Below are positions 6,203-18,169 of a DNA stretch of 60,835 bases, one piece after another. The first letter of the stretch is position 1. The number at the start of each line of letters is the position of its first letter. The DNA is from an uncultured Bacilli bacterium. GTDB taxonomy: Bacteria; Bacillota_I; Bacilli_A; RF39; UBA660. The notes under the pieces were generated by a model, which saw only the letters and a program-made list of their open reading frames with translations, had not been told where the DNA came from and did not search any database. A program made the translations under genes and the position numbers. The stretch covers positions 1-60,835 of the forward strand of contig CALVON010000014.1 in NCBI GenBank assembly GCA_944350315.1. The letters run 5' to 3'.

Positions 6203-6231
6203 TTGACAAAAATAATAGTTTTTGATATAAT
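6203..6231 (+). promoter_or_regulatory. Consensus sigma-A promoter for the large ncRNA
   Basis: TTGACA (6203-6208), exactly 17 bp, TATAAT (6226-6231). This is a perfect consensus and among the strongest in the window. It predicts transcription from about 6238-6241, just where the closing helix of the RNA begins. Confidence 0.85.
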
Positions 6232-6238
6232 TTTAATT

Positions 6239-6815
6239 GTGTGATGGCACATTATTCTAGTCAATTGATTCATTATGAAGACGGGATTAAAAAATCGTTA
6301 AAGAGCATATCTATGAGGCCATTTGTGTTTGCTTTAGATGCCCAATCTGGGGTGGATGCTGATGATGAGGATAATGGATAGAGTGTAATGGCATATATTT
6401 GATTCCATTATTCGTGGAGACCTATCTTTGTAATAGATATATATTTTATTACGAACTAGGATTAAACCTGCTATGTGGTTAATAGCTATGAGCAGTGTAG
6501 CTTGTCTTGAGTGAAAGATTTGGGATTAATTTTAATAATATAGTAATTGGCCATTTATTATATTATGGAGTAGATTATGAAATTACTTTTGCAAAAGAGA
6601 ATTAATAATGATGCGTTGGTGAGGAAATCTCCTAGAATGTTTTATGATATGGGATTGCAGTGGGAACTAAGTGGCAATCAAGTCGTATGATGTGGAAACA
6701 CCGTACTGTCTTCTTTAAAGGGGAACCGCAATACTGGTAACGGTATGTAGAAGATAGGGAAAACCTACTTGACCTAAGTCTCAAAGTTAATCATATTCAT
6801 AAGCCATTATTTTTA
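6239..6815 (+). ncRNA. ole: Large structured ncRNA, probable OLE RNA
   Basis: About 575 nt without a plausible reading frame, more GC-rich than its surroundings, and driven by a perfect sigma-A promoter. The ends pair: 6241-6248 with 6803-6810 (eight pairs including G-U). A nested long-range helix joins GAAGAC 6277-6282 to GUCUUC 6708-6713. Local helices include CUGCU/AGCAG (6468-6472/6491-6495) and UAGG-GAAAA-CCUA (6755-6767). CUGAUGA at 6359-6365 resembles a kink-turn core. OLE RNAs of anaerobic or extremophile Firmicutes are ~600 nt and are usually followed by the gene for membrane protein OapA. The next gene here, 17 nt downstream, looks like OapA. The structure is read directly; the OLE assignment rests on size, closed ends and context. 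ROOL, of similar size, is the alternative. Confidence 0.75.
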
Positions 6816-6832
6816 AATTTGTTGGAGGAATA

Positions 6833-7354
6833 ATGAAAGGTAATTATCGTTGGAGTCTAATAATAACTATTTTAGCATTTATTATATCGTTGTTAATGTC
6901 ACTATTTTCAACGTTAGTATTACAAAATGTTAATTTATTATTGGCTATTGTAATTACTTTTCTTTTTATTTTAATAGGTATTGTTTTTGATATTATCGGA
7001 GTAGCTGTTACTAGTGGTGATGAGACAGCATTTCATTCAATGAGTTCTAGAAAAGTTAAAGGTGGGAAGATGGGCGTAAAATTATTAAAAAATGCTTCTA
7101 AAGTTTCTTCTTTTTGCTGTGACGTTGTTGGTGATATATGTGGAATTATCTCTGGAGCTACTGGGGTAACAATTGTTACATTATTAATTATATATACCGA
7201 TTATAATGAATTACTTATTTCATTATTAGTAACGGCATTAATTTCATCTTTGACAATAGGGGGAAAGGCTTTAGGTAAGAATTACGCAATGAATAAAAGT
7301 ACAAATGTTATAAAGATGGTAGCTACTTTTTTATCAGTTTTTAGTAAAAATTAA
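6833..7354 (+). CDS. oapA: OapA-like OLE-associated membrane protein
   Basis: A 173-aa integral membrane protein with about four hydrophobic helices: residues ~7-30, ~35-58, ~108-124 and ~128-145. Between helices 2 and 3 lies a charged loop with FDIIGVAVTSGDETAFHS, then SSRKVKGGK and SFCCDVVGDICGIISG; the tail holds GGKALGKNYAMNKST. This arrangement matches my recollection of OapA (sometimes misannotated as a CorB-like Mg/Co transporter), which binds OLE RNA at the membrane. It starts at ATG 6833 after GGAGGA, immediately after the large RNA, so it is likely co-transcribed or processed with it. An alignment would settle it, but the RNA context is strongly supportive. Confidence 0.8.
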   Translation: MKGNYRWSLIITILAFIISLLMSLFSTLVLQNVNLLLAIVITFLFILIGIVFDIIGVAVTSGDETAFHSMSSRKVKGGKMGVKLLKNASKVSSFCCDVVGDICGIISGATGVTIVTLLIIYTDYNELLISLLVTALISSLTIGGKALGKNYAMNKSTNVIKMVATFLSVFSKN

Positions 7355-7402: not shown

Positions 7403-7432
7403 AAAGGCGATTTTCTTAAAGGGGGAGTGTTT

Positions 7433-8899
7433 ATGGACGAAGAAAATAGAAGAATAAATTGGTCAAGTTTCTTTATTAAAGGAATAATTGTTATTATTTT
7501 TATATTATTTACAGTATGGTTATTGTCTTTGACCAATAAGGGGGTTAATAAATCTTTAGGTGTACTTACTGATAATGTTTTTTCAGAAAACATTGATAAG
7601 ATGAAAGAAGCTGGAAAAGATTATTTTACTAATGAAAGATTACCACAAAAAGTTGGGGAAATTGAAACAATTTCTTTAGCTAAGATGTATGATCTAAAAC
7701 TATTATTGGAACTTAAAGATAAAAATGGTAATTTTTGTTCAGCTACAAATTCTTATGTTTCAGTAGAGAAATTTGATAATGAATATCAAATGAAAGTATA
7801 TCTTGAGTGTGGGGAAGAGAGTGACTACATCATAGTCATTATGGGCTGCTATGATTATTGTGATACTGACATATGTGAGAAAAAAGATGATAGTTCTGAT
7901 AGCACAAAACAAATAGAGTATGAGTATAAAAAAGCAACTGGAGGAAAGTGGACTGATTACGGAAGCTGGTCTGAATGGTCAAAAGTATCAGTTACAAAGA
8001 CAGATTATCGTCAGGTAGAGACAAAGATAGTTAAAGAAGAATATTCATATGATAAGACAGTTATTGAAACAAAATATGAAGAGCTTAAGGCAACTTGTCC
8101 AGAAGGATATAAGAAGACGAGTGATGGAACAAAATGTTATAAAGAAGATACAACTACAGTATATACTGATAAAACTTGTGCTAGTACATATAATGGTTAT
8201 ACGTTAGTTAGTCAAAATGGTAATATATGTAATTATAAGAAAACATCTAATGTGACAACTAATCCAACATGTCCTTCAACATATAATGGATATACATTCT
8301 ATGCAAGGGATGGATTTACTTGTAAATATAGCAAGAGCGTATCATATTCTTATCAAGTACCAGTAACAGTTTCAAAGACTTGTTATACGACTCGTTCACA
8401 GTTAGTCACACCTTGTACGGGGTGTGCACCTCAATGGCAAACTATAAGAATTCCTTATGATTGCTCTACAACAAGTTATCAAACAAAGTATGATACTAAA
8501 ACAGAATATACAACAAGTACAGCTAGTTGCCCATATGGAACTAGTCAGTCAGGTAATAAATGCGTAAGTACGCAGTCACAAACTACAACTACTAATGCAG
8601 TTTGTCCTGTTGGGTATAACAATTCTAGTGATGGAAGATGTTATAAAAATTCTACTAATACAAAATATGAAGATATAAGTTATTCTTGTTCTGCTGGATA
8701 TGACAAGACAAGTGATGGTAGACAATGTTATAAAGAAGTACCAACTACGGTTCAAGTTACTGGTACTAAAGATGTGACATATTATAGGTATAGAATTAGA
8801 GAATATATTGGTGGAACTGTTGATTATAAATGGAGTACATCAAAAGAAGATAAAGAATTATTAAATGCTGGATATGTATTAACAGGAAGAACTAGATAA
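7433..8899 (+). CDS. Membrane-anchored cysteine-rich repeat surface protein
   Basis: A 488-aa protein with a short cytoplasmic N terminus, one membrane helix (~residues 14-35) and a large exported region. Residues ~165-185 carry a WTDYGSWSEWSKVSV segment resembling thrombospondin type 1 'WSxWS' motifs. After this come at least six cysteine modules of the form (T/S)CPxGYxxxSDGxxCY or TCxSTYNGY..C, between ~residue 220 and 430. A C-terminal YYRYRIREY...W..LLNAGYV segment follows. The repeats suggest a disulphide-stabilised adhesin-like or scaffold ectodomain, which is inference. ATG 7433 follows GGGGGAG. It precedes the 8920 gene by 20 nt and is probably co-transcribed with it. No enzymatic motif was seen. 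Confidence 0.75.
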   Translation: MDEENRRINWSSFFIKGIIVIIFILFTVWLLSLTNKGVNKSLGVLTDNVFSENIDKMKEAGKDYFTNERLPQKVGEIETISLAKMYDLKLLLELKDKNGNFCSATNSYVSVEKFDNEYQMKVYLECGEESDYIIVIMGCYDYCDTDICEKKDDSSDSTKQIEYEYKKATGGKWTDYGSWSEWSKVSVTKTDYRQVETKIVKEEYSYDKTVIETKYEELKATCPEGYKKTSDGTKCYKEDTTTVYTDKTCASTYNGYTLVSQNGNICNYKKTSNVTTNPTCPSTYNGYTFYARDGFTCKYSKSVSYSYQVPVTVSKTCYTTRSQLVTPCTGCAPQWQTIRIPYDCSTTSYQTKYDTKTEYTTSTASCPYGTSQSGNKCVSTQSQTTTTNAVCPVGYNNSSDGRCYKNSTNTKYEDISYSCSAGYDKTSDGRQCYKEVPTTVQVTGTKDVTYYRYRIREYIGGTVDYKWSTSKEDKELLNAGYVLTGRTR

Positions 8900-16202: not shown

Positions 16203-16231
16203 ATGACAAAAAGTTAATTTTGTGTTATCAT
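16203..16231 (+). promoter_or_regulatory. Promoter of nusB-xseA-xseB
   Basis: ATGACA (16203-16208), 17 bp, TATCAT (16226-16231) with an extended TG. It rules out nusB starts upstream of ~16237. Confidence 0.6.
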
Positions 16232-16251
16232 TATTAAAAGTGGTGATGAAA

Positions 16252-16653
16252 GTGACAAGACATGAACAAAGATATAGGGCAATGACAATATTGTATCAAG
16301 CTTTTCTATATAAAAATAATAATATTGATTTTAAAATAAATGATATAGTAAATGAACAATTGGAAGAAAAAAGTAAGTTTATATTGACATTAGTTAATGG
16401 GGTAATTGAAAATATTCAAAAATTAGATGAAATAGCCAATAAATATTTAGAAAATTGGGATATTTCTAGATTAGGATATACAGATCAAGCAATTTTGAGA
16501 ATGGGTATTTTTGAAATAATTAATACTGATACTCCAGATGTTACTTGTATAGATGAAGCTATTGAGCTTAGTAAGGAATATTCTGATGAAAAAGTTTCTA
16601 AAATGATAAATGGGGTATTAGATAAAGTTTATCATAATAAAATTAACAAATAG
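16252..16653 (+). CDS. nusB: Transcription antitermination factor NusB
   Basis: An RNA-binding antitermination factor that acts with NusE on rRNA boxA. All-helical. It shows the family pattern LTLVNGVIENIQKLDEIANKYL and the DQAILRMGIFEI...DEAIELSKEYSDEKVSKMINGVLD segment. GTG 16252 gives 133 aa and MTRHEQRYRAM, with GGTGAT before it. It heads an operon with xseA and xseB, as in Bacillus, where OLE RNA also sits nearby. Confidence 0.93.
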   Translation: MTRHEQRYRAMTILYQAFLYKNNNIDFKINDIVNEQLEEKSKFILTLVNGVIENIQKLDEIANKYLENWDISRLGYTDQAILRMGIFEIINTDTPDVTCIDEAIELSKEYSDEKVSKMINGVLDKVYHNKINK

Positions 16654-16683
16654 AAGAAATATTTTATTTAAAAAGGTGAATTT

Positions 16684-17958
16684 ATGTGTGTTGAATATAT
16701 TACAATAGGAGATTTAAATAAATATTTAAAAAAAATATTTGATAATGATAGAAATTTACAAGAAGTATATATTAAAGGTGAAATATCTAATTTTAAAGCA
16801 CATACGAGGGGTCATTTTTATTTTACATTAAAGGATGAAACCAGTAGAATTAATGCTGTAATGTTTTCTTACAAAGCTAGTATGTTAAAATTTATTCCAA
16901 GTGATGGGATGAAAGTTTTAGTTAGGGGAAAAATTTCAGTATATGAAGCTACTGGATCTTATCAAATATATGTTGAAGAAATGGATCAAGATGGATTAGG
17001 AAATTTATATATAGAATTTGAAAAACTAAAAAAGAAATTAGCAAGTGAAGGTTTGTTTGATCAAGATAAAAAGAAAAAAATACCTAAGGTTCCTAAAAAA
17101 ATAGGAATTGTTACTGCTAGTACAGGCGCTGCTATTAGAGATATTTTGACTACAATTAAAAGAAGATTTCCAATATGTGAAACTATTTTATTTCCTTCTT
17201 TAGTTCAAGGGGTAGATGCTGCAAAAGATATTGTTAAAAATATTGAATTGGCTAATACTTTTGATATTGATACATTAATAGTTGGTAGAGGTGGTGGATC
17301 AATTGAGGATTTATGGCCTTTTAATGAAGAAATAGTGGCTAGAGCTATATATGAATCAAAAGTCCCTGTAATTAGTGCGGTTGGACATGAAATAGATTTT
17401 ACAATTGCTGATTTTGTAGCTGATTTAAGGGCACCTACACCAACTGCTGCAGCGGAATTAGCAGTTCCTAATATTGAGACAATTAAAACATATTTAGATA
17501 ATGCAATATCTAGAAGTACAATAAGTATTAATAATTGTATTGATATTAGAAAACAAAATTTAAGTAATTTAATTAATAGTTACATATTAAAAAAACCGAC
17601 AGCTATGTATGAAATTAAAGAACAGAGTTTAGATTTTTTGATAGATAAACTTAATAAACAGATGAAATTAATTATAGATAATGTGAATATAAGGTTATTT
17701 AAAGTTGTAAATAGTTATATTCTTACTAATCCAGAAATTTTATATAAATTTAAACAGCAAAATTTATCTCATTTAATTAATAAATTAGATGTATTAAATC
17801 CAATGAATACTATTAAAAGAGGATATGCTATAGTTAAATGTAATGATAAGGTAGTATCTGATATTTCGAATGTTAAATGTGATGATATAATTGATATTAA
17901 TATAAAAAATGGCATTATTAATGCTAAAGTTTTAGAGGTGAATCATGGAAAAGAATAA
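16684..17958 (+). CDS. xseA: Exodeoxyribonuclease VII large subunit
   Basis: Large catalytic subunit of the single-strand-specific nuclease ExoVII. It has the N-terminal OB fold (~residues 5-100), the catalytic core with GIVTASTGAAIRDIL and the hallmark VGRGGGSIEDLWPFNEE...SAVGHEIDFTIADFVADLRAPTPTAAAE, then a coiled coil and the C-terminal NPMNTIKRGYAIV segment. 424 aa is normal. It overlaps xseB by 14 nt. Confidence 0.96.
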   Translation: MCVEYITIGDLNKYLKKIFDNDRNLQEVYIKGEISNFKAHTRGHFYFTLKDETSRINAVMFSYKASMLKFIPSDGMKVLVRGKISVYEATGSYQIYVEEMDQDGLGNLYIEFEKLKKKLASEGLFDQDKKKKIPKVPKKIGIVTASTGAAIRDILTTIKRRFPICETILFPSLVQGVDAAKDIVKNIELANTFDIDTLIVGRGGGSIEDLWPFNEEIVARAIYESKVPVISAVGHEIDFTIADFVADLRAPTPTAAAELAVPNIETIKTYLDNAISRSTISINNCIDIRKQNLSNLINSYILKKPTAMYEIKEQSLDFLIDKLNKQMKLIIDNVNIRLFKVVNSYILTNPEILYKFKQQNLSHLINKLDVLNPMNTIKRGYAIVKCNDKVVSDISNVKCDDIIDINIKNGIINAKVLEVNHGKE

Positions 17959-18169
17959 AGATAATTTTGAAGAAAAAATTAGAAAATTAGAAGATATTGT
18001 TAAAGAATTAGAAAGTGGAGAAGTTAATTTGGACGAGGCAATTGAAAAATATTCAAGTGCAATGAAGTTAGCTAAAGAGTGTTCTGATAAATTAAATACA
18101 GCAACAGAGCAAGTAAATAAAATATTAAAAGAGAATGGTACTTTGGAAGATTTTAAAATAGAAGAATAA
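17945..18169 (+). CDS. xseB: Exodeoxyribonuclease VII small subunit
   Basis: 74-aa helical-hairpin subunit that binds the coiled coil of XseA. The family pattern FEEKIRKLEDIVKELESGEVNLDEAIEKYSSAMKL is evident. The start lies within the end of xseA (AGAGGTGAATC before ATG), so the two are coupled. A tRNA follows 11 nt after the stop. Confidence 0.95.
   Translation: MEKNKDNFEEKIRKLEDIVKELESGEVNLDEAIEKYSSAMKLAKECSDKLNTATEQVNKILKENGTLEDFKIEE

Follow-up and report, generated by a model that had tools for sequence, protein, structure and literature searches.

A full-length OLE RNA with its OapA partner in a gut bacterium of the RF39 lineage

The ole-oapA locus

The window, meaning the whole 60,835-nt stretch of DNA that was analysed (GenBank assembly GCA_944350315.1, contig CALVON010000014.1, positions 1 to 60,835, forward strand), comes from an uncultured Bacilli bacterium of the RF39 lineage (UBA660) with a genome of 1.18 Mb in 46 contigs, 95% complete. 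Near its start lie a promoter, a large structured RNA and the gene of a small membrane protein. The P numbers in the following list were inferred from the order of elements in published OLE models.

6203..6231 (+), promoter with extended -10 (TTGACA-17-TATAAT, TG before the -10), 12/12 match
6228..6823 (+), OLE RNA, extent given by the Rfam match (predicted mature 5' end near 6238); RF01071, covariation
6241..6248 (+), end-to-end helix, 5' strand (equated with published P2, one part of the OapA site), pairs with 6803-6810; covariation, minimum-energy fold
6253..6276 (+), 5' strands of P3/P3.1, partners 6605-6619 and 6632-6639; 90% paired, P numbering inferred
6280..6299 (+), P4a hairpin (the other part of the OapA site); 94% paired, two-sided changes in 5/6 pairs
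6319..6365 (+), P5/P5.1 with a GCCCA loop; covariation alignment
6369..6413 (+), P6 with an internal loop; covariation alignment
6421..6460 (+), P7; two-sided changes in 10/16 pairs, lost in variant-2 relatives
6468..6495 (+), P8; two-sided changes in 9/13 pairs, lost in variant-2 relatives
6504..6601 (+), P9 with sub-stems; covariation alignment
6621..6802 (+), remainder of domain 2 (P10 onward); most helices 97-100% paired
6803..6810 (+), end-to-end helix, 3' strand; covariation alignment
6824..6828 (+), oapA ribosome-binding site GGAGG; sequence
6833..7354 (+), oapA, 173 aa, membrane protein with a predicted CNNM fold; alignments, OLE-linked homologues, fold match

OLE is a membrane-associated RNA of bacteria and, to our knowledge, one of the largest and most strongly conserved for which no biochemical function has been established. 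A cmscan of the window with the full set of 4227 Rfam families placed OLE (RF01071) at 6228-6823 on the plus strand with 353.1 bits (E 3.8e-100, model positions 1-616, cut-off 50), and this is the sole OLE copy in the genome. Neither ROOL, GOLLD nor any other large-RNA model gave a competing plus-strand match in the all-Rfam scan or in a permissive scan of the region. A SAM-II match at 6862-6918 on the minus strand, inside oapA, is due to chance (24 bits against a cut-off of 44). Most clostridial OLEs score higher (378-557 bits) than the window copy, a difference that we put down to AT drift.

The perfect consensus promoter and the ORF-free stretch described in the initial annotation are both real. 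The promoter occupies the same place in 23 of 25 family OLE loci with at least 10/12 matches, 11 of these being 12/12, and its position leads us to expect the RNA to start near 6238. No credible gene lies between 6133 and 6833, where a spurious 72-aa minus-strand ORF is the only reading frame that touches the interval. The genes nusB, xseA and xseB, whose presence about 9 kb downstream had been cited in favour of OLE, are indeed located at 16222-18169; their proximity is uninformative, however, because they lie 9 kb and several genes away and the neighbours of OLE other than oapA differ between genera.

The window feature is a genuine full-length OLE RNA with its OapA partner, as had been thought probable from the sequence, and with the full-model RF01071 match and the alignment of the protein with OLE-linked clostridial OapA this identification is secure. 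The covariance-model search proposed at that stage, ROOL and GOLLD included, returned RF01071 at 353 bits with no competitor. Each outcome named in advance as contradicting it (no OLE match, no covariation, a better ROOL score, a protein other than OapA) was looked for, and none was observed. We consider the locus, with a probability of about 85%, to be an ole-oapA operon in which a strong promoter drives a full-length OLE whose architecture is maintained by compensatory change, followed by oapA with its own ribosome-binding site.

RNA architecture and covariation

Covariation was assessed in a structure-blind MAFFT alignment of 40 sequences, 37 of them full-length OLEs of the family and three from Clostridium rectalis and two Caloramator, onto which the Rfam structure of the window's match was projected. 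Across this alignment 86.8% of cells are paired, compared with 38-45% after sliding the partners by 1-3 columns. Changes on both sides affect 120 of 162 pairs (90.6 in shuffles, with 0/500 shuffles as high) and 977 cells (330 in shuffles); the shuffle statistics ignore relatedness, whereas the slid-partner controls retain it and agree. Folded alone, the window strand reaches a minimum energy of -148.2 kcal/mol (z -2.3) in a structure that recovers 126 of the 154 Rfam pairs. Within the genus, the RNA is conserved at 88-90% and oapA at 69-79%.

Two long-range helices outside the Rfam structure, the end-to-end helix and P3/P3.1, were tested separately. Pairing of the 5' and 3' ends (6241-6248/6803-6810), noticed from the sequence at the outset, is borne out: 79% of cells are paired among the 40 sequences, five of the eight pairs have changed on both sides, minimum-energy folding predicts the helix, and clostridia and the shortened OLEs described below carry compensated versions of it (GUGGC/GCCAC and GUGGU/ACCAC). 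P3/P3.1, composed of 6253-6260/6632-6639, 6261-6267/6614-6619 and 6270-6276/6605-6611, is better supported still, with 90% of cells paired and 13 of 21 pairs changed on both sides, and these are the true nested long-range helices of the window OLE. The membrane crossing proposed in the OLE literature corresponds to P3/P3.1. The nested helix originally suggested, 6277-6282/6708-6713, does not survive the same comparison (64% of cells paired against 63.6% in shuffles, slid versions being equal or better). It is missing from the minimum-energy fold, and each of its strands is already part of other conserved helices; perfect 6-mer complements separated by 300 nt or more occur 28 times in the window OLE.

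The kink-turn strands J4a/5 and J6/7 are near-invariant in most full-length copies despite the lack of an L7Ae homologue, which fits the formation of the kink turn in RNA alone (PMC12286853).

Compared with the full-length class (RF01071; H. halodurans, C. acetobutylicum, C. botulinum), the window copy shares P4a, P5-P9, domain 2, the 5'/3' helix, P3 and an oapA gene directly downstream, and differs in being AT-rich and about 580-596 nt long, in residing in a genome where OapB and OapC were not found, and in a small hairpin at Rfam model positions 424-435 (alignment columns 474-482) that is present in clostridia and absent in the aligned full-length OLEs of the family.

The OapA protein

The RNA is followed, as the initial annotation had it, by a 173-aa helical membrane protein that starts at 6833 behind GGAGG. 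An AlphaFold2 model (pLDDT 83.9) predicts four long helices at residues 5-32, 35-61, 88-121 and 126-154. Sequence libraries do not name the protein: the Pfam CNNM match is below cut-off (E 0.0068, 16.5 against 28.4 bits), NCBIfam gives no match to it, and a PDB sequence search with an OapA profile likewise gave none. Its identity as OapA consequently rests on homologues and fold.

The protein aligns over its length with proteins encoded beside OLE across the family. A genome-wide search for homologues was made by protein similarity alone and the best 80 of 574 relatives were kept; OLE lies just upstream in all 15 loci tested from among these 80, which include the cultured Clostridium rectalis, Caloramator quimbayensis and Oscillibacter sp. 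ER4. The alignment to OapA that had been proposed as a check is end-to-end with these OLE-adjacent clostridial proteins, at 44-50% identity. Most family relatives carry a basic N-terminal extension, which the window protein lacks.

Foldseek places CorB entries first for the OapA model, and VIA-align superposes it on the membrane domains of archaeal CorB (MtCorB) and bacterial CorC with Z scores of 14.2 to 12.2 over 121-129 residues (14.2 to 7m1t, 12.6 to 7cff), compared with 7.5 for the best unrelated fold. Judging by the model, the published link between OapA and CNNM/MpfA proteins is reproduced on the window protein. The 173-aa protein is thus identified as OapA, with a predicted fold of the CNNM/CorC Mg2+-transporter membrane domain. 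In contrast to MpfA and CorC, it consists of the membrane domain only, with no CBS or CorC_HlyC domain.

Distribution of the pair and competing readings of the locus

OLE has already been reported in gut RF39 and TANB77 bacteria (Fernando & Breaker 2024, PMC11332333). The window OLE is therefore a new example in a known host group, its occurrence there is not new, and its description as unusual for an AT-rich lineage does not hold. In the family, OLE was detected in 129 of 193 genomes (248 of 386 in a deeper survey), whereas all 23 genomes sampled from other families of the class lacked it. The 130 matches of the 193-genome survey comprise 93 of 540-618 nt, 32 of 460-539 nt, three complete ones of 378-381 nt and two that are cut. 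Among 37 family genomes, 24 encode both OLE and OapA, 12 encode neither and one encodes OapA only; in this last case (G004) the contig stops about 100 nt from the gene, on the side expected to hold OLE. OLE and OapA behave as one heritable unit with a patchy distribution.

An alternative reading is that the RNA acts solely in cis, as a structured leader regulating oapA, and has no function as a free molecule. Such a leader would account for the position of the RNA directly before oapA in nearly all loci and for the lack of a terminator between them. The arrangement is nevertheless broken in two genomes. In one (G009), OLE and oapA are on separate contigs (C3, L010 and C12, L142), both intact and far from contig ends; in another (G011, L017), a divergent OLE with an altered P4a loop is separated by about 1.2 kb from its downstream oapA, with minus-strand ORFs between the two. 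In addition, experiments have shown that the class to which the RNA belongs acts as an abundant RNP (PMC12265935). A purely cis-acting leader is accordingly very unlikely, and the unlinked pair of G009, a natural one, points to an RNA that acts in trans.

Decay of a non-functional OLE in a genome under reduction could be read from the bit score below those of clostridia, the missing OapB and OapC, and the 12 of 37 family genomes without the OLE-OapA pair. A decaying element would hardly retain a perfect, conserved promoter, an intact oapA, compensatory changes in nearly every helix and an RNA better conserved than oapA, and we regard this reading as scarcely credible. That the region belongs to a different large RNA class resembling OLE (ROOL, GOLLD or an unnamed one) is refuted by covariation and by the full-length RF01071 match, OLE being the only one of the 4227 families on the plus strand and its conserved segments lying in order, and has a negligible probability.

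Missing partners and MpfA

OapB and OapC are small protein partners of OLE that are essential in the model species. Since genomes of the family are incomplete MAGs, single absences are weak evidence, whereas family-wide absences are not. OapC, a member of the L7Ae family (PF01248), was found in none of 37 family genomes and in 21 of 23 class genomes outside the family. In OLE-bearing clostridia, OapB occupies the slot between map and infA, and the map-infA ORF of Clostridium rectalis matches the solved OapB 7k9b (E 3.9e-11). In the window's genome this slot (L135) is empty, map running straight into infA, and an OapB profile that recovered the protein in five of seven clostridial genomes left out of its construction found no match there or in 60 relatives. 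A search of the rest of the genome for both proteins had been recommended, and neither was detected by synteny, profile or PF01248. These results agree with the report of RF39 and TANB77 as lacking OapB and OapC (Fernando & Breaker 2024, PMC11332333).

Of 23 family genomes searched, 19 encode the ribosomal protein bS21, among them three of the window's genus; it was not found in the window's own incomplete MAG. As far as genome sequences can tell, the OLE complex of this lineage appears to be partner-poor, with neither OapB nor OapC detectable. A clean full-length OLE in a tiny gut genome without them suggests that neither protein belongs to the irreducible machine.

MpfA has been proposed as a replacement for OLE. 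Its marker PF03471 is present in 20 of 23 other genomes of the class and in none of 37 family genomes, the window's included. Its absence from the whole set of 37 makes the loss of MpfA independent of OLE possession, and the idea that MpfA and OLE substitute for one another is qualified at the family level: MpfA is missing even from the 12 members without OLE or OapA. These 12 genomes encode neither of the two proposed Mg2+ systems, and the family can live without OLE, OapA and MpfA.

Proposed mode of action

A mechanism can be borrowed from work on H. halodurans OLE (PMC11332333, PMC12265935, PMC9723947, PMC12054373). By analogy, OapA translated from the same transcript would, as a dimer, bind the P2 and P4a regions and anchor the RNA to the membrane, and the resulting particle would adjust divalent-metal (Mg2+) handling and stress responses. 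Since OapA has the CNNM fold and lacks the cytosolic domains of MpfA and CorC, it is plausible that regulation falls to the RNA. In the window's lineage, the particle may be reduced to the RNA and OapA, perhaps with bS21. Since neither OapB nor OapC is detectable, the RNA would have to fold and dimerise without them, which RNA-only cryo-EM dimers make plausible.

Graded truncation of OLE within one family

OLE RNAs have been divided into a full-length class, variant 1 with short P7-P9 (TANB77) and variant 2, which has no P7 or P8 and is common in RF39 (PMC11332333). The presence of P7 (6421-6460) and P8 (6468-6495) makes the window OLE full-length and excludes variant 2; its earlier description as a diverged OLE thus stands mainly with respect to composition and not as placement in the P7/P8-less variant. 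Variant 2 inhabits the same kind of host, and copies of about 490 nt also occur in the window's family. The aligned variant-2 relatives keep P5 and P6, and have lost the J6/7 kink-turn strand together with P7 and P8, all of which the window copy retains.

Still shorter forms of about 350 nt, here termed mini-OLEs, were found in three species of two genera (G134, G198 and G064), with Rfam OLE matches at the following positions.

L137:1669-2046 (+), mini-OLE RNA
L138:1716-2093 (-), mini-OLE RNA
L139:1663-2043 (+), mini-OLE RNA

They score 134-139 bits and miss model positions of about 74 to 277. The 5' end GUGGUGC and its 3' partner (P2) are kept, as are P3, P4a with a CUAAAAA loop, the P9 stem and domain 2, and a single short hairpin stands in place of P5-P8. 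Their promoter is of the same type as the window's, and an intact oapA of 172-174 aa follows about 5 nt downstream; MpfA is absent from these genomes too. Identity among the three species is 94-98% for the RNA, 85-87% for oapA and 49-79% for the flanks, and the upstream gene differs between genera. Given the contrast between RNA and flanks and the differing upstream gene, selection on the RNA is the simple reading. No description of an OLE form without P5 and P6 was found among the OLE papers cited here; the mini-OLEs are the least expected result of this analysis, and the graded series would be unexpected to a specialist.

P5-P8 is the portion visible in cryo-EM dimers and holds the OapC and bS21 sites. 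One family contains the full-length form of the window, variant 2 and the mini-OLE, all of which keep P2, P3, P4a, domain 2 and OapA, and these natural truncations would divide OLE into a dispensable and an indispensable part. Whether the OLE particle of the family consists of the RNA and OapA alone, with most of domain 1 (P5-P8) dispensable, we would put at even odds; if so, the conserved activity would lie in domain 2 and the OapA-bound neck. The series makes the long-standing question of domain function directly testable and could help to assign roles to parts of the RNA.

A further divergent OLE was found in one genome (G031, L140:1656-2124 on contig C3) beside a normal copy. Truncated where the contig stops, and with degenerate pairing in P4a and a degenerate form of the conserved 5' end, it may equally be a paralogue, a pseudogene or contamination. 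Downstream of the window's own pair, positions 7427-8899 encode a 490-aa membrane-anchored protein with Cys-rich repeats and no good family match, which is kept after ole-oapA in the genus.
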